From Bifidobacteriaceae bacterium (GTDB lineage: Bacteria; Actinomycetota; Actinomycetes; Actinomycetales; Bifidobacteriaceae): a stretch of DNA of 42,542 bases. The notes under the pieces are model-generated. The model saw only the letters and a list, made by a program, of their open reading frames with translations, made no database searches and was not told the origin of the DNA. The DNA lies in assembly GCA_022649925.1 (NCBI GenBank), contig JALCOX010000008.1, forward strand, positions 1-42,542, written 5' to 3'. The stretch's first letter is position 1, and each line of letters opens with the position of its first letter. The position numbers and the translations under genes are program-made. Of the stretch, positions 19,547-30,374 are shown in pieces.

Positions 19547-22500
19547 ATGGCGGACGAGAAAACACAGATGAAGATGGCGAAGCAGCACGCTCTGAGAGTT
19601 GGTCTCGATATTGGATCCACCACAGTCAAGGCTGTGGTCCTCGAAGACGTGGCGCCGAATTCCGACGAGCAGCACGAGCAGCAGAAGCCCGTCGCACCGG
19701 AGATCATCTTCTCCGATTACCGTCGTCACCACGCCAACGTTCGCGCAACTGTAGCCGGCCTCATCCAAGACATTCATAAGCTCCTGCTGTCCCAAGATCG
19801 CGGTGACATTCCGATTCACTTCGCAATCACCGGTTCCGGTGGACTCGGTCTGGCCGACAGTCTTCACAGCCAGTTCATCCAAGAGGTCATCGCCGAGACC
19901 GAGGCAATCCAGACGGATTACCCGCAGGCGGACGTCATTATTGAGTTGGGTGGCGAAGACGCCAAGATCACGTATTTGAAGCCAACGCCTGAACAGCGGA
20001 TGAACGGTTCGTGCGCCGGCGGAACCGGAGCGTTTATCGACCAGATGGCGACGCTTCTCAACACGGACGCCGCCGGTCTCAACGAGTACGCAAAGCACTC
20101 CACTACCTTGTATCCCATCGCGTCGCGGTGCGGAGTTTTCGCGAAGTCCGACCTTCAGCCGCTCATCAACGACGGTGCCGCCAAGGAAGATCTTGCCGCC
20201 TCCATCTTCAACGCGGTGTCGACACAGACGATTGCGGGTCTCGCCTGCGGTCGCCCCGTCAAGGGCAACGTCGTATTCCTCGGCGGTCCGCTCTTCTTCA
20301 TGTCGGAATTGCGTGAGGCTTTCCGACACACGCTGGAGGGCGTGACGGACACCTTCATCACCCCCAAGGACGCGCACCTCGCCGTCGCCTACGGTGCCGC
20401 TCTCCTCGCCGGTTCCGACGAGGGCGAAAACGCCGACAACGCCGAGGCGGTCACCTGCGCCGAGCTCCTCACCGAGCTGCAGGTCCTTTCGACCGTCAAG
20501 GCGAATATCGCCTCGATGCGTCCTCTTTTTAAGGATAAGAACGAGCGCGAGAGCTTCGATGAGCGCCACGGTCGCGAACAGGTCACGGTCGGCACTCTCG
20601 ACGGCGCGAGCGGGCCGCACTTCCTGGGTATTGACGCCGGCTCGACCACGATCAAGGCTGCGCTTGTCAACGACGATCAGGAGATCGTCTGGTCCTCATA
20701 CGCGACCAATCAGGGCAGTCCGCTGATTGGCGCCGCGGAAATCGTCAAGAAGATCACAGCCGAACTTCCCGCCGACGCCTACATCGCGCGCAGTTGCGCG
20801 ACAGGGTACGGCGAGGGTCTCATCACGGCGGGACTGCATCTGGACGAGGGCGAAGTCGAAACGATGGCGCACTACCGGGGCGCAGAGGTCGTGAGCCCGG
20901 GCGTCACGTCGGTGATCGACATCGGCGGTCAGGACATGAAGTATCTCGCCGTCACCGATGGCGTTATCGACTCCATCGCCGTCAACGAGGCGTGCTCTTC
21001 TGGTTGCGGCTCCTTCCTGCAGACGTTTGCACAGTCCATGGGATTGAGCATCGAGGAGTTCACCCAGGCGGCGCTCAACTCCACCAGTCCAGTGGATCTC
21101 GGCTCTCGCTGCACGGTGTTCATGAATTCTTCGGTCAAGCAGGCGCAGAAAGAGGGCGCCACGATTGAAGACATCGCGGCCGGCCTGTGTTACTCAGTGG
21201 TGAGGAACGCGCTGTACAAGGTCATCAAGCTGCGCGACTCGGGCGATCTCGGCTCCACTGTGGTGGTTCAGGGCGGAACGTTCTTGAACGACGCCGTGCT
21301 GCGCGCCTTCGAGCTGCTGACGAACCTCGAGGTCACCAGGCCCAACATCGCGGGTCTCATGGGTGCCTACGGCGCGGCCCTCACCGCGCGAATGCACTTC
21401 GGCAATCTCGAAGAAGAAGACGAGGCACAGAGCGAGAAGACGACCGGCGCCGAATTCCGCCGCACGTCTTCGGTTCTCACGGGTGAGGCGCTCGACCATC
21501 TCTCCATGACGTCCGAGCGTGACATCTGCAAGCTGTGCCAGAATCATTGCAAGCTCACGATCACCACGTTTGAGGACGGCACGCGCTACGTGACGGGCAA
21601 CCGCTGCGAACGCGGAGGCGACCGCAACAAGAAGAAATCCACGCTGCCCAACCTGTACGACTACAAGTACAAGCGCGCCTTTGGCTACCGTCGCCTCACC
21701 GAGAAGAAGGCAACCCGCGGCGACATTGGCATTCCGCGCGTGCTCAACATGTATGAGAACTACCCGTTCTGGTTCACGCTGCTCACCAAGCTCGGCTTCC
21801 GCGTCATGATCTCGAAGCGCTCGAGCCACGAGGTGTTCGAGAAGGGCATCGACACCATCGCCTCCGAGAACATCTGCTACCCGGCAAAGATGGTGCACGG
21901 ACACATTCGCACGTTGCTCGAGAAGGGTGTGAAGACGATCTTCTACCCCTGCGTCTCGTACGAAGAAGATTTCACGGACGATTCCGACAACAACTACAAC
22001 TGCCCCATCGTGGCCAACTATCCCATGGTCATCGGTGCCAACATGCCAGATCTGCGCGAGCCCGGCATCCGCTACATGCACCCCTACTTCAACATGGCGA
22101 ACCACGAGCTCATGGTGGATCGCATCGTCGAGGAGTTCAAGTGGGCAGACGTGGGGCACGACGAGGCCGCGGCAGCGGTTCAGGCCGCCTACGCTGAGTC
22201 CAAGCTCTTCCGCAAGGACGTGCAACAGGAGGGTCTGCGCGCGCTGACGTATATGCGCGAACACAACGTTCGCGGCATCGTGCTCGCGGGGCGTCCCTAC
22301 CACATCGATCCTGAGGTCAACCACGGAATCCCTGAGACCATCAACACGCTGGGAATGGCGGTGCTTTCCGAGGATGCAATCGCCGAGCTGGCACCCAAGG
22401 AAATGCCCAACCTCACCGATTTCGTGCCCAGCGGCGAACTTCCTTCCCGCGACAAGGATGCTGAGGGCTTCCGCAAGACGGCGGGCACCGACGCGGCAGG

Positions 22501-24262
22501 CAAGAAGCGGCTGCCGTTGCGCGTCATGAATCAGTGGGCATATCACTCCAGGCTCTACGCCGCCGCGCGCTTCGTGGCGGAATATCCAGGACTGGAACTG
22601 GTTCAGCTCAATTCCTTCGGCTGCGGTCTCGACGCCATCACCACCGACCAGGTGCAGGAGATCCTGGCCGACAAGGAGGACGTGTATACCCAGCTCAAGA
22701 TCGACGAGGTCACCAACCTCGGCGCGGCCAAGATTCGTCTGCGCTCGCTCAAGGCTGCGGTCGAAGAGCGGGAGCGCGCCGCGAAGGCTGCCAAGGTCTA
22801 CAGCGCCGTCAGCAACATCAGTGCGATGGCGGACGTGCGCGAGGGGCTCGAATCCGGCGCTCCGAGCGGGCGCGGCCACGCGGGTGAGCACGGTGCCTCC
22901 GAGCACACCACGTCCACGCTGAGCAAGTACGCCCATCCGGCAACCTTCACCAAGCAGATGCAGAAGGACGGCTACACGATTCTGGCTCCCCAGATGTCGC
23001 CGATCCACTTCTCACTGCTCAAGGCGGTGTTCGAGTCCGGTGGTTACAAATTCGACCTGCTTGAGCACGCGAGCCGCGACGACGTAGAATCCGGGCTTAA
23101 ATTCGTCAACAACGACGCCTGCTATCCGGCCATCATGGTGGTCGGTCAGCTGGTGCACGCCTTTGTCGACGGCTCTCACGATCCCGACAAGTGCGCTGTC
23201 ATCATTACGCAGACCGGTGGCATGTGCCGCGCCACGAACTACGTGGGTCTTCTGCGCAAGGGCCTGGCGGACGCGGGATATCCGCAGGTCCCGGTGATCG
23301 CGCTGAGCACGCAGGGATTCGAGTCCAACCCGGGCCTCCAGATCACGCCGGCGCTGCTGCACCGTGCCGTCAAGGCCTTCCTGCTGGGTGACCTTATGCT
23401 CAAGTGCCTCCTGCGCGTGCGGCCTTACGAAGTGGAGAAGGGCTCTGCGGATCGCCTCTACCACCAGTGGGACGCGATCGTGCGCGAGACCATCGAACAT
23501 CACGGGCGTTCGGCCACTGCCAAGCGGACGGCGGGTAAGTCTTTCTACTCCTACAGCTCACTGGCAAAGGCCATCGTCACCAGCTTCGACACGTTCCCGC
23601 TGCAAAATATTGCGCGCAAGCCGCGTGTGGGAGTGGTGGGGGAGATCCTCGTCAAGTTCCACCCCGACGCCAACAACCATGTGATCGACGTCATCGAGTC
23701 GCAGGGTTGCGAGGCCGTGATGCCCGGCATCACTGAGTTCATGGTGCAAAACCTCTATGTGTCTGAATGGAACAAGCAGAATCTCGGCACGGGTGGCAAC
23801 CTCAAGGTCAAGGGGCTCATGAAGGACGTCGTGGACCTCTACGAGAAGCCGATTCGCAACGCCATCGACCTGGCGCACGGGAAGTTCACCCAGGATCTTC
23901 CGATGGATCAGTTGGTCGAGAAGGCACGCTCGGTTACCTCGGTGGGTGTTCAGGCCGGTGAGGGCTGGCTGCTGACCGGCGAGATCATGGAGCTGATCGA
24001 CTCTGGCACGCCCAACGTGGTGTGCGCACAGCCCTTCGCCTGCCTGCCCAACCACGTGACCGGTCGAGGCATGTTCCAAGAGATTCGTCGTCAGCGCGGC
24101 GAGGCGAACATCGTGTCGATTGATTACGACCCCGGGTCCTCGGAAGCCAACCAGCTCAATCGTATCAAGCTGATGATTTCCGCTGCGAAGAAGGCGTATG
24201 CGAAGGCGGAGGAAGAGGCGGCACGTGAGCCTGCTTCACCTCAGCTGGAGCCCGCCTCCTGA
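19547..24262 (+). CDS. Large acyl-CoA dehydratase activase fusion (BadF/HgdC-type ASKHA ATPase x2 plus DUF2229/HgdB-like regions)
   Basis: Two ASKHA phosphate-1 motifs (VGLDIGSTTVKAVVLED; FLGIDAGSTTIKAALVND), NEACSSGCGSFLQTFAQSMG, ICKLCQNHCKLTITTFEDGTRYVTGNRCERGG, C-terminal dehydratase-like region. Confidence 0.9.
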   Translation: MADEKTQMKMAKQHALRVGLDIGSTTVKAVVLEDVAPNSDEQHEQQKPVAPEIIFSDYRRHHANVRATVAGLIQDIHKLLLSQDRGDIPIHFAITGSGGLGLADSLHSQFIQEVIAETEAIQTDYPQADVIIELGGEDAKITYLKPTPEQRMNGSCAGGTGAFIDQMATLLNTDAAGLNEYAKHSTTLYPIASRCGVFAKSDLQPLINDGAAKEDLAASIFNAVSTQTIAGLACGRPVKGNVVFLGGPLFFMSELREAFRHTLEGVTDTFITPKDAHLAVAYGAALLAGSDEGENADNAEAVTCAELLTELQVLSTVKANIASMRPLFKDKNERESFDERHGREQVTVGTLDGASGPHFLGIDAGSTTIKAALVNDDQEIVWSSYATNQGSPLIGAAEIVKKITAELPADAYIARSCATGYGEGLITAGLHLDEGEVETMAHYRGAEVVSPGVTSVIDIGGQDMKYLAVTDGVIDSIAVNEACSSGCGSFLQTFAQSMGLSIEEFTQAALNSTSPVDLGSRCTVFMNSSVKQAQKEGATIEDIAAGLCYSVVRNALYKVIKLRDSGDLGSTVVVQGGTFLNDAVLRAFELLTNLEVTRPNIAGLMGAYGAALTARMHFGNLEEEDEAQSEKTTGAEFRRTSSVLTGEALDHLSMTSERDICKLCQNHCKLTITTFEDGTRYVTGNRCERGGDRNKKKSTLPNLYDYKYKRAFGYRRLTEKKATRGDIGIPRVLNMYENYPFWFTLLTKLGFRVMISKRSSHEVFEKGIDTIASENICYPAKMVHGHIRTLLEKGVKTIFYPCVSYEEDFTDDSDNNYNCPIVANYPMVIGANMPDLREPGIRYMHPYFNMANHELMVDRIVEEFKWADVGHDEAAAAVQAAYAESKLFRKDVQQEGLRALTYMREHNVRGIVLAGRPYHIDPEVNHGIPETINTLGMAVLSEDAIAELAPKEMPNLTDFVPSGELPSRDKDAEGFRKTAGTDAAGKKRLPLRVMNQWAYHSRLYAAARFVAEYPGLELVQLNSFGCGLDAITTDQVQEILADKEDVYTQLKIDEVTNLGAAKIRLRSLKAAVEERERAAKAAKVYSAVSNISAMADVREGLESGAPSGRGHAGEHGASEHTTSTLSKYAHPATFTKQMQKDGYTILAPQMSPIHFSLLKAVFESGGYKFDLLEHASRDDVESGLKFVNNDACYPAIMVVGQLVHAFVDGSHDPDKCAVIITQTGGMCRATNYVGLLRKGLADAGYPQVPVIALSTQGFESNPGLQITPALLHRAVKAFLLGDLMLKCLLRVRPYEVEKGSADRLYHQWDAIVRETIEHHGRSATAKRTAGKSFYSYSSLAKAIVTSFDTFPLQNIARKPRVGVVGEILVKFHPDANNHVIDVIESQGCEAVMPGITEFMVQNLYVSEWNKQNLGTGGNLKVKGLMKDVVDLYEKPIRNAIDLAHGKFTQDLPMDQLVEKARSVTSVGVQAGEGWLLTGEIMELIDSGTPNVVCAQPFACLPNHVTGRGMFQEIRRQRGEANIVSIDYDPGSSEANQLNRIKLMISAAKKAYAKAEEEAAREPASPQLEPAS

Positions 24263-24286: not shown

Positions 24287-24322
24287 ACCCCGGCGAAAGC
24301 TGGGGTTTTCCTTATTTTTGCA
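24287..24322 (+). terminator. Intrinsic terminator downstream of the activase gene
   Basis: ACCCCGGC-GAAA-GCTGGGGT stem-loop (24287-24306, one G-U pair) followed by TTTTCCTTATTTTTG. Confidence 0.85.
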
Positions 24323-24542
24323 ACGAAATTGACGCTTCTGTTGACCACTTTTGGCTGTATTTTGCGCTGTGTTAAATACCCCCGGCGTGTCGATTTGAGA
24401 CCGCTCTCAGTGGTGTGGTTATATACGGGTGGTTACGGAAAGTGCGTGGGGTATTTCAATAATTGAAGGCGCTTTCCCTCTCAGTTTTATTTTTACGACG
24501 TGGCGCGTCTCAGAATGCGCCGCCTCAATCTCAGGAGAAATG

Positions 24543-25124
24543 ATGAACAGTAAATTCAGTGTGGCTTCAGGTGCTCTTCTCACAGGTCTCGCCGTTATTG
24601 CGCTTGCGGTTCCGAACACCGCGTACGCAGCCGATGCTGGCTCCTCTGCAGACAGCAACACGACGCTGAACGTCACCGCCGGGACACTGGATTTGGCGGG
24701 AACAACAGACGGCGACTTTGGTGAGACCTCCGTCTCGACGATCCACAACTCCGGTTTCACGAGCTCGATTTCCGAGGCTCCCGTTGTCACTGACTACCGA
24801 GGTGGCGACGGCGCCTGGGTCCTCAGCGTGAAGTCCAACGGCACTTTCGCTTCCCAGCTCGGCGCGACGCTGAGCGTCCGTGATAACGGAAGTGCGGCCG
24901 ATTCCTCGGCGAGCGGCGCGACGCTGACGAAGCCAAGTGCGACGACCATCACGACGGCAGACTCCGCAGTGACGACCGCTTCGGCCGCCAATGGCAAAAA
25001 CGATCTGAAATACTCGGTCGGTCTGAATATTGCTCAGGGTACTAACGTGAAGGCTCAGAGCTACACGGACACCCTGACGTGGACGCTGGGTACCGCGGTT
25101 GAGCAGGGCGAGGGCAGCAACTGA
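24543..25124 (+). CDS. Small secreted WxL-domain-like surface protein
   Basis: Signal peptide MNSKFSVASGALLTGLAVIALAVPNTAYA; proximal GAWVLSVKSN and distal YTDTLTWTLGTA WxL motifs; AGGAG at 24533-24537; ATG at 24540 is also possible. Confidence 0.8.
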   Translation: MNSKFSVASGALLTGLAVIALAVPNTAYAADAGSSADSNTTLNVTAGTLDLAGTTDGDFGETSVSTIHNSGFTSSISEAPVVTDYRGGDGAWVLSVKSNGTFASQLGATLSVRDNGSAADSSASGATLTKPSATTITTADSAVTTASAANGKNDLKYSVGLNIAQGTNVKAQSYTDTLTWTLGTAVEQGEGSN

Positions 25125-25193
25125 GCTGGACTTGGGACGTACGCCGCTGAACCAATGGTCAGCGGCAAGTGAAGTAGCGGCGGAGGTGACGCA

Positions 25194-26387
25194 GTGCGAA
25201 TGACGAACGGAATCGGAAGAGCGAGTGCGATAGTAGCGAGCTGCGTCGCAGCGCTCCTGGTGGCAGGTGCGCTCTGCGTTCCCGCGCATGCAGCGGGGTT
25301 CGGACTGTCGGTGAATCCGGTGTTGCCTCAAGAGCAGAGATCCACCACGACGTCGTATTTCGACGTGGCAGCGGCCCCGGGGCGGGTGAGCACCCTCAAG
25401 GTCGACCTCGTCAACAAGACCTCCAAGGCGATGAAGGTGTCGGCCGCGGTGGTACCGGCCAGTACCAGTGATTCAGGAAGCGTCGCTTACGATGCGACTT
25501 CTGCGGCGACCACTTCAGTGGCGTCAACCGCGCACAAGCTTCCAGACCTGGTGTCTGTCAAGAACCAGACGTTGCAAATCCCAGCGAACTCTACACGCAT
25601 CTTCACCACGAAACTCACCATGCCCGCGCAGTCCTTCGAGGGTGTGGTCGCGGGCGGCATCGTCGTGGAGCAATTGGGGCAGAACGCCGAGAAAACCTCA
25701 CACAACGGGGGAGTGGGTATCGGTATCTCCTCCAAATATCGGTATGTGATTGCCGTTCTGGCGCGTAACAGTGAGAAGACCGTTACCTCCGACCTCTCCT
25801 TTGGCAAGGCCAGTGCCCGTCAGGTCAGCAAGAAAAATCAGATCGCGTTAAAGCTGGAGAATGCTCGCCCTACGTTCCTCAACCAGCTTGAGGTCAGTGC
25901 CACGGCAACTCTGGCGTCTGATTCCTCGAAGAGTTATAAGCAGTCGGCGAGCGGCATGCAGATGGCACCGAACTCGTCGTTTTCGTACGCAATCTCCCTG
26001 CCCGACGACGTGAGCCCGGGGACGTACGACGTTTCTGCCGCGGCGTATTACGTGCAAGATTCCAAGGGTCCCTACACAGGTGCGGACGCCCAGAAATACA
26101 AGTACCGCAAAACTTTTAAGGGCAAGGTCACCGTGAGCGCTGCCACGGCGAAGAAGTTCTCGGATTCCATCAGCTCGGTGCGGGACGCGCCGGGCATTGC
26201 ATGGTGGGTTTATGTGATCGTCATCGTGGTGTTGCTGCTCCTGATTTTGCTGGTGCTGGCCTACGTCGTGTACCGCAGGAAGCAGCTGGAAATGAAACGC
26301 CTCCGGACGCAACTTGCGAACGCACAGGGCGAAGTTGCTCCCAGGATCATTGCACGGACGGGGCGCGGAGGTGCCCACCGAGTATGA
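25194..26387 (+). CDS. WxL-interacting protein-like (DUF916/DUF3324-type) membrane-anchored surface protein
   Basis: Signal peptide, GFGLSVNPVLPQEQRSTTTSYFDVAAAPGRVSTLKVDLVNKT, middle region with VAGGIVVEQLG, C-terminal TM (IAWWVYVIVIVVLLLLILLVLAYVVYRRKQ) with a basic tail; GTG start with GGAGG upstream. Confidence 0.8.
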   Translation: MRMTNGIGRASAIVASCVAALLVAGALCVPAHAAGFGLSVNPVLPQEQRSTTTSYFDVAAAPGRVSTLKVDLVNKTSKAMKVSAAVVPASTSDSGSVAYDATSAATTSVASTAHKLPDLVSVKNQTLQIPANSTRIFTTKLTMPAQSFEGVVAGGIVVEQLGQNAEKTSHNGGVGIGISSKYRYVIAVLARNSEKTVTSDLSFGKASARQVSKKNQIALKLENARPTFLNQLEVSATATLASDSSKSYKQSASGMQMAPNSSFSYAISLPDDVSPGTYDVSAAAYYVQDSKGPYTGADAQKYKYRKTFKGKVTVSAATAKKFSDSISSVRDAPGIAWWVYVIVIVVLLLLILLVLAYVVYRRKQLEMKRLRTQLANAQGEVAPRIIARTGRGGAHRV

Positions 26388-28297
26388 GTCCGACCGACGC
26401 AACGCCGGATCTGAGGCACCACCCTCGACGTGGAATATTCGACATAGTGATCATTTTGATGGTGATCACTGGCCTGTGCGGTGGTGTTTCTTCCGCATCG
26501 GTGCCTCCTGTGTCAGCCGCCGAGGCGACGTATCCCGCCACCACGGTGGTGTCATATGGCATTCCTGGGGACGTTGTGCAGGTCATCTGTGATAACTCCC
26601 GCATGGCTGACGGGAAGGCACCCTGCGATGACGGCATCACCGCTGCCACCATGACGCTCGCCGACGTCGCGCAGATGACGGTCTTCAGCGTGGCGAACCG
26701 CACGAAGTCGACGGACGCTGACGACGTCGCAAGCTCTACTCCCAACGCGACAGTTGCGACATGGGCGAAAGACGTCGTCGATCGCGCCGCCGCAACCTGG
26801 GTGAAAAACGCCACCAATGCTCAGCGTGTGGTGACCGACGATGAGAGCCGTGTGAAATCCGATGCCGTGCTGCGCTACGACCTGTGGACGGATGCGTCTG
26901 TATCCCAGAAGATTCTGACGGACGGCGTGCCAAAATATTCAGGAGGCTTGGGCGCGGCCAACTCGTGGAACACACCAACTCCGGTCTTTAACGTGCTCAT
27001 GGCGCTGGCCAATAGTGCAACGAATGCCACCACCATCGATCTGACAGGGTTGCTGTCGAAGGTTGACCTCAGCGCCACCACCTACCCCGGTGTGCGTTTG
27101 AAACTGCTGTCGTTGTTGCAGGGAAAGTCTCTCGCCAAGCTCACCACGCTGAAGCTGGGATACAACGGCATTGGGATTGATTCCCAGGCCTGTGCCAACA
27201 GCGGTTCCGTGGACGACTGCACTGATTCTGCCGAGAACTGGTTCCGCTCGGGTCCTCTCGCCGCGCCCAGCCTCGATGCGTTGTATCTGGACAACAACGA
27301 CATCCACGCCATCGATGCCACCATGCTTTCCGACGCTGCGCAGACAGTCACAAAGCTCTATCTCAGTGGCAACGACCTCAGCACTCTCAACTACAACAAC
27401 GGCCAGTTCTTCCAAAGCATTCTGAACAACCCGGACTCGGTGCTCGATCTGTCTGGCAACCTTTCCATCAACGAGGAAGACAAGAACACACTCTTCGTGC
27501 TGGAAAAGGCCATCGAGACGAACGGTGCCGCGATCACCATTGAACAGTCGGTGCTCTCGGCGACGCTCATCGCCGCTATCGCGGACACTACATGGTGCGG
27601 AACTCTGAGCGTAAAGGGCCTTGAGTCGGTGGCGGATCGCATCGATACGTCAGTGCTGTCCGCGTGGCTGGCATATTCGGCGGATCCCACCAACAAATGC
27701 GCTCCGCTGACGCCCACGACCGAGATTCTCGACGCCATCATGGAGAAAAGCACGGCCTCGGTGGAAGGCTTGAGTGAGCAAGACAAGAAAAATCTACAGA
27801 CGATGATTGATTCCACTACCGATGCAGGCGTCAAAGAGGCTCTGGAAAGAATGCTCGAGATCGCGAATTCCGCCTCTGCGAGTTCGATCGAGGTTTCCGG
27901 GACGCTCGATTTCGGCAGCGTGAGCATCGAGGACCTCTATGCGGGCGCGCCGGTGGAATCGGCGTCCACCCTCACCATGAAGGGCACGTTGGAAGCGAAT
28001 CAGAAGCTCACGGTGGAGGAGTCGCCCTGGGTGAGCGCGAGTGGAACAAGCTTTACGCCGGAGCTATCACTTCAGCTGAGCGGTGTCTTTGGCGCCCTCA
28101 CGGTGAATTCCACTGTTGATCTGACGTCTCATTCTCCCGTCGACGTTGTGCCCGTTTCCAGCAGTTCTGCGGTGAATTCCGGCACGCGCGACTTCGATCT
28201 GAGTGTGGACAAGGCCGCGCTGACCGGTTTGCCGGCCACCCTCACGGCGGGTCAATACACGGGGAGTCTCACGTGGAGTCTCGTCGCTGGGCCGTGA
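26384..28297 (+). CDS. Secreted leucine-rich-repeat protein with C-terminal WxL-like region
   Basis: Signal peptide; LRR-like LTTLKLGYNGIGID, LDALYLDNNDIHAI, VTKLYLSGNDLSTL, VLDLSGNLSI; C-terminal YTGSLTWSLVAGP; start ATG 26384 overlaps the upstream TGA (ATGA), with GGAGG upstream. Confidence 0.8.
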   Translation: MSPTDATPDLRHHPRRGIFDIVIILMVITGLCGGVSSASVPPVSAAEATYPATTVVSYGIPGDVVQVICDNSRMADGKAPCDDGITAATMTLADVAQMTVFSVANRTKSTDADDVASSTPNATVATWAKDVVDRAAATWVKNATNAQRVVTDDESRVKSDAVLRYDLWTDASVSQKILTDGVPKYSGGLGAANSWNTPTPVFNVLMALANSATNATTIDLTGLLSKVDLSATTYPGVRLKLLSLLQGKSLAKLTTLKLGYNGIGIDSQACANSGSVDDCTDSAENWFRSGPLAAPSLDALYLDNNDIHAIDATMLSDAAQTVTKLYLSGNDLSTLNYNNGQFFQSILNNPDSVLDLSGNLSINEEDKNTLFVLEKAIETNGAAITIEQSVLSATLIAAIADTTWCGTLSVKGLESVADRIDTSVLSAWLAYSADPTNKCAPLTPTTEILDAIMEKSTASVEGLSEQDKKNLQTMIDSTTDAGVKEALERMLEIANSASASSIEVSGTLDFGSVSIEDLYAGAPVESASTLTMKGTLEANQKLTVEESPWVSASGTSFTPELSLQLSGVFGALTVNSTVDLTSHSPVDVVPVSSSSAVNSGTRDFDLSVDKAALTGLPATLTAGQYTGSLTWSLVAGP

Positions 28298-28406: not shown

Positions 28407-29495
28407 ATGCAAAACAGTGAACACATTGTTCCCATTTCGGAGCTCGATTATGCGCACACTATGGATACGGTGGTGCTGCCGGCGCTCGCCCGTGCTCGCC
28501 ATGACGACTGGTATGCGGTGGAGCGTGATTCAGAGCCGCTCAACGTGCCCGAAACTGTCAGCATTGAGGTCCCGCAGGGGATTCACTCGCAGTTTTATTC
28601 TGTGCGGCAATTTGCGCAAGCCGACGCTGAGGGCGGTGATGCATCCTCATCTGAGACCCTTGGAACCGTTGTGATTTCGCATGGTTTCACGGAGGGGGCG
28701 GTGAAGTATTCTGAGCTCTCATGGTATTTCCTGTCGGCGGGATTCAACGTTCTCATTGTGGAACACCGCGGGCACGGGGCGTCGTTGCGAGAAAACTCTG
28801 ATCCCTACATCGTGAGCATCCATGACTGGCGGCATTACATCACCGATTTCGTGGGCGCTGTGGCGCAGGCGAGCGAGAAGTACCGCCTAAACGAGCAGGG
28901 GCCGTTATTCCTCTTCGCACATTCTCTGGGTGGTGCCATTGGTGCGGGAGTGATGGAGTCGCATCCCGACCTGTTCGCGCGAGCCGTGCTGAGCTCGCCG
29001 ATGTTCATGCCTCAGGTCGGCATGCCCCTAGGAGTGGCGTATGCGTTGGCGTCGGCGGCGGAGGCCGCAGGGCACGGCGCCCAGAAGGTTCCCACGTTGC
29101 CGATCTTTTCAGAGGACTTGGGGAAGAACAAGACGGGCGGGCGCTCGCAGGCGCGCGTGGACTGGTATTTCCACCAGCGGATTGACGACTGGCGGTATCG
29201 CACGTCGGCGCCGAGTCTCGATTGGGTCAAGGCTGCACTGGACTTGGACACCGCTGTGTTGGCCCCCTCTGCCATTGCCGCGATTCGCACGCCCATTCTG
29301 ATGTTTCAGGCCGGGGACGATCATTGGGTGAGACCCAGCGCGCAGAACCTCTTTGTGCGCCGCGCCCGTCGCGCCGACGTTCCGTTGCGTTTTTTGAACG
29401 CTGCGGATTCCACGCACGAAATCTTCTCCGAACCCAACTCTGTTCTGGAGCCGTATCTCAACGAAATACTGAGGTTCTATCGAGCAGATAGGTGA
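28407..29495 (+). CDS. Alpha/beta hydrolase (lysophospholipase/monoacylglycerol lipase-like)
   Basis: VVISHGFTEGAVKYSELSWYFLSAGFNVLIVEHRGHGAS; nucleophile elbow FAHSLGGAIGAG; ILMFQAGDDHWV. Confidence 0.88.
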   Translation: MQNSEHIVPISELDYAHTMDTVVLPALARARHDDWYAVERDSEPLNVPETVSIEVPQGIHSQFYSVRQFAQADAEGGDASSSETLGTVVISHGFTEGAVKYSELSWYFLSAGFNVLIVEHRGHGASLRENSDPYIVSIHDWRHYITDFVGAVAQASEKYRLNEQGPLFLFAHSLGGAIGAGVMESHPDLFARAVLSSPMFMPQVGMPLGVAYALASAAEAAGHGAQKVPTLPIFSEDLGKNKTGGRSQARVDWYFHQRIDDWRYRTSAPSLDWVKAALDLDTAVLAPSAIAAIRTPILMFQAGDDHWVRPSAQNLFVRRARRADVPLRFLNAADSTHEIFSEPNSVLEPYLNEILRFYRADR

Positions 29496-29668: not shown

Positions 29669-30082
29669 TCACGATTTTATTTTCTCCAATAAATCCTCTG
29701 CTTCGACGCGAGGAATAATACTGTCTACATAGGCGCTCTTGTCGGCAGAAACAATATAATCCGCCTCCCACGACTCGGCACAGGCGCGAATAATGCCGTC
29801 TTCGTAGTCGCGTTCTTCTGAGATCAAAGCGTGAGAACAAAGTTCTGCGGTGAGTGGAATGACTTCGTAGAAACTGAGGAACGCCTGGATGAAGCCGGTT
29901 CTCAGCTCTTTAGAGATGTCTCTGGAAATGTAGTCGAAATCCATGAGTGAATGTGGACTGATTGCAGACTGAAAAGCTTCCCGCTGTAGTATGCCAGCAA
30001 GCTCAATGGCAGACTGATGCCGCTTCCGTTCTTCATTGGCACAATCGAGGAGGAAGTTGGTGTCGAGAAAGATTTTATACAT
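29669..30082 (-). CDS. PIN domain ribonuclease toxin
   Basis: IFLDTNFLLDCANEERKRH..; RDYEDGIIRACAESWEADYIVSADKSAY, conserved PIN acidic residues. Confidence 0.85.
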   Translation of the reverse strand: MYKIFLDTNFLLDCANEERKRHQSAIELAGILQREAFQSAISPHSLMDFDYISRDISKELRTGFIQAFLSFYEVIPLTAELCSHALISEERDYEDGIIRACAESWEADYIVSADKSAYVDSIIPRVEAEDLLEKIKS

Positions 30083-30374
30083 GTTTGCTGCCTAGATCTT
30101 TCTTGATGTCCTCTGGACTGTAATGAGCCCAGGGAAGGCCTCGCGGAACTTTGGAGGCCAACTCGCGTAGCCTTTGTGTTGCGCGCCGTGCTTTTTCCTC
30201 GTCAATCTGCTGACGCAGTGGCGTCGTGCGTGGGGAAGCTGTTTGAAGTGTTGTCATGGGTGATGCCTCTTCATTGGATGACGATGTGAATTTTGCCTGA
30301 GCTGCGTCTTCGTTGTTCTCGCTGGCAGTGGAATCCTTGGGATTCTCATTATTTTCCATAGTCATGGACATCAC
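30075..30374 (-). CDS. Putative antitoxin partner of the PIN toxin
   Basis: Directly upstream and overlapping the PIN gene by 8 nt; charged C-terminal region EEKARRATQRLRELASKVPRGLPWAHYSPEDIKKDLGSKHV; exact start uncertain. Confidence 0.65.
   Translation of the reverse strand: MMSMTMENNENPKDSTASENNEDAAQAKFTSSSNEEASPMTTLQTASPRTTPLRQQIDEEKARRATQRLRELASKVPRGLPWAHYSPEDIKKDLGSKHV

Follow-up and report, generated by a model that had tools for sequence, protein, structure and literature searches.

A Lactobacillaceae-type WxL surface-protein operon, probably acquired by horizontal transfer, in a member of the Bifidobacteriaceae

Described WxL systems and the bifidobacterial locus

More than 91% of known WxL sequences come from Firmicutes (PMC9772566), in agreement with the initial annotation of the locus described here, which placed these systems mainly in low-GC Firmicutes. 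Canonical clusters, such as csc of Lactiplantibacillus and loci A-C of Enterococcus faecium, combine a small WxL protein, a WxL-interacting protein (WxLIP) and a large WxL protein, and in homologues WxL domains bind peptidoglycan non-covalently, WxL binds WxLIP and adhesion is reported (PMC5817068, PMC4522977, PMC10599100). The present analysis concerns a trio of genes at 24543-28297 in contig JALCOX010000008.1 of a Bifidobacteriaceae genome (GCA_022649925.1); this contig, analysed over its entire 42,542 nucleotides, is referred to as the window. The host is a high-GC actinobacterium within the Bifidobacteriaceae, an uncultured relative of Bifidobacterium, and open reading frames for three consecutive secreted proteins lie where the initial annotation had placed them. 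The trio is a canonical small-WxL/WxLIP/large-WxL cluster and thus an already known kind of system. It is very probably a Lactobacillaceae-type operon that was horizontally acquired as one block and encodes a wall-attached surface complex.

With the canonical cluster the trio shares the gene set, signal peptides and the PGBD-HBD-transmembrane architecture of the WxLIP (PMC10599100, PMC9772566), as well as the dual motif in the small WxL protein and the C-terminal WxL domain in the large one. It differs in standing in a bifidobacterium at 59% GC, in having no LPXTG gene, in the degenerate proximal motif of the large protein and in the PGBD strand of the WxLIP, which keeps YFD, whereas the NQIDK part is changed to EQRST. 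Closer still are the trios of Secundilactobacillus silagincola, Secundilactobacillus mixtipabuli and Lacticaseibacillus parakribbianus, which have the same gene order, the nearest WxLIPs (36-38% identity) and a collinear large WxL protein with leucine-rich repeats (LRRs), at 29-30% identity over the whole protein; they differ in this low identity, in their flanking genes and in the large protein, which is about 115-120 amino acids (aa) shorter in the window. The likeness to elrA-E of Enterococcus faecalis proposed at first stands for architecture, since both systems have a large LRR protein with a C-terminal WxL domain, a DUF916 transmembrane protein and a small WxL protein (PMC4522977). It does not extend to gene content or nearest relatives: the elr operon has five genes in another order, including an LPXTG protein (elrB) and two further WxL proteins, whereas the trio lacks an elrB-type gene and a second small WxL gene, and the sequence homologues found for its large protein belong to Secundilactobacillus and Lacticaseibacillus.

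Composition of the trio

The three genes are as follows.

24543..25124, + strand: small WxL protein, 193 aa (194 from the ATG at 24540), matching PF13731
25194..26387, + strand: WxLIP, 397 aa, GTG start, matching PF06030 and PF11797, with a signal peptide, PGBD/DUF916 at residues 39-159, HBD/DUF3324 at 175-322, a transmembrane helix at about 337-360 and a basic tail
26384..28297, + strand: large WxL protein (P0003), 637 aa, from an LRR profile and hhalign of the C-terminus, with a signal peptide, a conserved N-terminal module YGIPxxVVQV, LRRs at about 215-340, a helical region and a divergent WxL domain at about 500-637

The genes are co-directional and have ribosome-binding sites and export signals, with a membrane anchor in the WxLIP only. 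As originally noted, the ATG of the large WxL gene at 26384 overlaps the WxLIP stop codon as ATGA.

The small protein, which starts at the ATG at 24540 or 24543 behind the Shine-Dalgarno sequence AGGAG, has a signal peptide that was read from the sequence (ending ...NTAYA, followed by ADA) and passes the curated PF13731 cutoff of 25 bits (32.8 bits, E 9e-8). Its domain contains a proximal motif, VTDYRGGDGAWVLSV, and a distal motif, YTDTLTWTL, both noticed at the outset; the corresponding W93-x-L95 and W181-x-L183 do not vary among 17 homologues, of which 15 come from Bacillota. The distal motif, defined as Y-x3-[LIV]-T-W-x-L, is unlikely to arise by accident, as it appeared in 15 of 200,000 shuffles of this protein.

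The second protein, initially described as DUF916-like with a C-terminal transmembrane anchor and a basic tail, lies far over the cutoffs of both PF06030 (96.9 bits, E 1e-27) and PF11797, the DUF3324 family (102.3 bits, E 3e-29), and its PGBD is followed by an HBD as in known WxLIPs. Its signal peptide and C-terminal helix were read by eye rather than with a predictor program, and the helix is followed by YRRKQ and the basic tail. It is alignable with enterococcal WxLIPs and matches the solved EfmWxLIP1 (9i1y, 9i25) in phmmer at E 2e-21.

The assignment of the third protein as an LRR-WxL protein held in part. LRR_8 falls under the Pfam cutoff, and an alignment profile of the protein matches solved LRR proteins (best E 1e-8). 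The C-terminus carries the distal motif YTGSLTWSL, found in 18 of 60,000 shuffles, but has PWVSASG in the proximal position, which reads WVS and not WxL, so that of the two W-x-L motifs the distal TWSL alone fits; neither this protein (at E 1) nor its lactobacillus homologues (at E 0.01), in which the proximal motif is likewise degenerate, match PF13731. In hhalign the C-terminus aligns with the small WxL protein over 119 columns (probability 93%, pairwise E 3e-7) and with a wider WxL set over the distal 31 columns alone (probability 92%), and an AlphaFold model places beta-strands there at a predicted confidence (pLDDT) of about 80. On the profile-profile comparison and the conserved distal Y...TWSL, it is best read as a diverged WxL domain. 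Counted in this way, the LRR protein completes a cluster of one WxLIP and two WxL proteins, and the original description of a complete WxL module in a high-GC actinobacterium is borne out by Pfam and profile comparison.

Distribution and origin of the trio

Within the Bifidobacteriaceae, PF13731 was found in 2 of 189 genomes, both of the window's genus, and PF06030 in 3 of 189, the third of which (G088) encodes a native-type protein with a PGBD only. PF11797 exceeded its cutoff in 1 of 298 genomes of the phylum and 1 of 297 of the order, both sets being samples, and in each case the genome was that of the window; none of the roughly 600 other sampled genomes had an HBD over cutoff. A WxLIP genome scan with two peptide patterns, which was not exhaustive, returned 49 loci, one of them actinobacterial by title and belonging to a same-genus metagenome-assembled genome (MAG).

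The genes on either side of the trio allow its site to be compared across the genus.

19547..24262, + strand: left flank, BcrAD/BadFG-DUF2229 acyl-CoA dehydratase activase-like gene, 1571 aa, from Pfam
28407..29495, + strand: right flank, S33-type alpha/beta hydrolase gene, from Pfam and synteny

The activase-like gene is conserved throughout the genus (three genomes), with 91% identity in the first congener (G001) and 88% in the second (G002). G001 (JALCQD010000001.1, Bifidobacteriaceae MAG UW_DM_BIF1_1) keeps the trio in the same order and place, with identities of 56% for the small protein, 63% for the WxLIP and 69% for the large protein. In G002 the hydrolase follows the activase after 85 bp on an unbroken contig and the trio is absent, representing an empty site.

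The same congener, G001, also has an extra 160-aa open reading frame upstream of the small WxL gene (L006:9129-9611, - strand), whose signal-peptide region resembles that of the small WxL protein (38% over 74 aa) and which has no WxL domain; it is probably a decayed or diverged duplicate of that gene.

The nearest WxLIPs outside the genus belong to Secundilactobacillus and Lacticaseibacillus, followed by those of enterococci and lactococci. Among the non-bifidobacterial loci fetched, homologues of the LRR protein occur only in S. mixtipabuli, S. silagincola and L. parakribbianus, the three genomes from which the LRR-type trio is known in lactobacilli, and collinearity with these proteins begins at the YGIPxxVVQV module and extends through the C-terminal WxL domain. 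The WxLIP tree places the bifidobacterial pair within the Lactobacillales, as the sister group of the three lactobacilli, with a support of 100 in the SH-like approximate likelihood ratio test (SH-aLRT). Grouping of the bifidobacterial WxLIPs with the clostridial WxLIPs of Oscillospiraceae or Clostridioides was rejected by the approximately unbiased (AU) test (p-AU 0.023 and far below). WxLIP relatives on plasmids belong, by named genera, mostly to enterococci and lactobacilli, with a best identity of 32%; no plasmid-borne relative of the LRR protein was found, and no transfer vehicle was identified.

The acquisition would have taken place in an ancestor shared by some members of a single Bifidobacteriaceae genus and would have involved insertion of the trio between the activase and hydrolase genes, followed by adaptation to the composition of the host. 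The idea that the trio represents a system of the phylum was not upheld: Actinomycetota essentially lack the HBD-containing Firmicutes type, and the trio falls among those of Lactobacillaceae and occupies an otherwise conserved bifidobacterial junction that one congener has without it. It thus appears that an entire surface-complex operon of Bacilli can pass into a bifidobacterium and persist through speciation, and its retention predicts a working anchoring in the actinobacterial wall, which would provide a natural test of the binding target of the WxL domain.

A native WxL-like pair in Actinomycetota

PF06030 proteins are found in 72 of 396 order genomes (18%) and 33 of 398 phylum genomes, and all five native proteins scanned have the PGBD and no HBD. 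Representative loci, from among L003-L064 outside the window, are listed here.

L009:2-1291
L042:1-1275
L055:2-1240
L052:2026-3297, - strand

A search for the strict distal-Trp motif beside the native PGBD genes found none. The view that these proteins stand alone was overturned once the Trp position was relaxed: in 41 of 61 loci the gene upstream then proved to end in a WxL-like domain. With a WxL-like profile trained on one half of the loci and applied to the remaining half, the partner was found directly upstream and on the same strand in 52 of 61 loci, and shuffled sequences gave 0. Of 33 native domains, 27 retain the proximal W, while the distal Trp position is occupied by L (24), I (4), F (3) or V (2) and never by W. 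Among Pfam families, these domains match chiefly PF13731 (11 of 33 at E <=0.1, best 1.9e-7), and hhalign relates them to Bacillota WxL domains with a probability of 93% (E 4e-7).

The native pairs share with the window trio a transmembrane-anchored PGBD protein whose neighbour has a WxL-like domain at its C-terminal end. They differ in the absence of the HBD, in the replacement of the distal Trp by L, I, F or V, in the position of the WxL-like gene, upstream and not downstream of the PGBD gene, and in the frequent fusion of the WxL-like domain to enzymes; in several loci it stands on the C-terminal side of a metallophosphoesterase, GDPD, HtaA or alpha/beta hydrolase domain. The PGBD-only protein of G088 (L007) also has a WxL-like gene upstream, and Bifidobacteriaceae therefore hold both types.

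Metallophosphatases and DUF916 have been mentioned as neighbours of another family, with an example from Microbacterium, and the WxL-like domain was not described there (PMC12537917). No description of the native pair was found in the literature searched, subscription papers being outside its coverage, and the pair is more novel than the window trio. It seems likely that Actinomycetota have a widespread and apparently undescribed WxL branch of their own, consisting of a PGBD-only protein and an upstream secreted WxL-like protein that is often an enzyme, that WxL tethering is general to Gram-positives and that the window trio is the imported Bacilli version. Through the native pair the WxL concept would then cover a second phylum, and tethering of a domain by a partner anchored in the membrane would be a general principle of Gram-positive bacteria and not a Bacilli adhesin.

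Proposed function and alternative explanations

In the proposed mechanism, all three proteins of the trio, whose signal peptides are visible in the sequence, would be exported by Sec. The WxLIP would be kept in place by the C-terminal helix and the basic tail, with its PGBD binding WxL domains, while the small WxL protein and the C-terminal WxL domain of the LRR protein would bind peptidoglycan non-covalently. The N-terminal and LRR part of the large protein, together with the HBD, could then face outward and bind a surface such as a polysaccharide, matrix or another cell. WxL-WxLIP binding, peptidoglycan attachment and adhesion are thus inferred for the trio from the literature on homologues, and a wall-attached, possibly adhesive surface complex, essentially the non-covalently wall-anchored adhesion complex first suggested for the locus, is retained as the best functional reading.

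The location of the WxLIP helix is an open question in the field, on which both the tail of the window WxLIP and the native PGBD proteins bear. Insertion into the host membrane has been proposed (PMC10599100), whereas the present analysis favours a helix in the bacterium's own membrane, because YRRKQ and the basic tail follow it and native PGBD proteins keep the helix even though they have no HBD.

A tentative alternative is that the trio was truly transferred and now forms a csc-like surface complex for plant-polysaccharide utilisation rather than a host or cell adhesin. The same-genus MAG UW_DM_BIF1_1 comes from a dairy-manure-hydrolysate bioreactor (PMC9387265), the species name of S. silagincola hints at silage, and csc clusters have been proposed for carbohydrate use, as for L. 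plantarum (PMC1534035). No carbohydrate-active domain was found in the three proteins with Pfam, however, and an LRR domain points to the binding of protein or glycan, not to catalysis.

Several observations count against reading the trio as a horizontally acquired WxL operon. An AlphaFold model of the small WxL protein from a 17-sequence alignment reached a pLDDT of 40 and did not confirm the WxL fold, and Foldseek found no match with E <0.001 in the PDB for the model of the large protein. The identity to the lactobacillus proteins is low (30-37%), and the donor is therefore not a sampled species and the transfer not recent. The GC content at third codon positions (GC3) is that of the host (0.70-0.72 in the trio, 0.70-0.80 in the flanks), so composition gives no independent support; this host-like composition again means that the transfer was not recent. 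A WxLIP tree uniting the bifidobacterial proteins with the native actinobacterial PGBD proteins in one clade was also not rejected (p-AU 0.396), because the native branches are long and compositionally biased and the root is unsure.

The last result, together with the wide occurrence of PF06030 proteins in actinobacteria, would also be expected if the trio were an ancestral actinobacterial system that was kept in this genus and lost elsewhere, with the lactobacilli having received theirs from actinobacteria. As the root is unsure, the case for the direction of transfer draws in addition on domain content, distribution and the empty site, and these make such an origin very unlikely: the native proteins have no HBD and are paired with WxL-like domains without the distal Trp, HBD and WxL domains are as rare in the order, phylum and family as given above, the diversity sits in Bacillota and the junction in G002 is intact and empty. 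That the trio is misbinned or chimeric lactobacillus DNA has a negligible probability: the 1.70 Mb assembly, of which the window is one entire contig, is fragmented and 76.9% complete and the family includes MAGs, but the GC content of the trio (59-60%) is similar to that of its flanks, the trio is continuous with conserved bifidobacterial genes, and contamination is ruled out because these flanks are 88-91% identical bifidobacterial genes and the independent MAG of another species (G001) has the same arrangement.

Flanking and regulatory features

A hairpin resembling an intrinsic terminator lies 3' of the activase gene and separates it from the trio.

24287..24306, + strand: intrinsic-terminator-like hairpin, 8-bp stem with 6 GC pairs and a T-rich tail

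Shuffled sequence gives about an equal number of such sites, and the hairpin is suggestive only. A search for a sigma-70-like promoter ahead of the trio found none, an Rfam scan of the window gave no match, and an NCBIfam scan of the trio gave no useful assignment. In four other genomes of the family, tblastn found no match to the activase in the 14-15 kb around the hydrolase, and the junction therefore seems to be genus-specific. Downstream of the hydrolase, a PIN-domain gene (PF13470, 39.9 bits; 29669-30374, - strand) overlaps a small upstream gene without a Pfam match, and the two may form a toxin-antitoxin-like pair.

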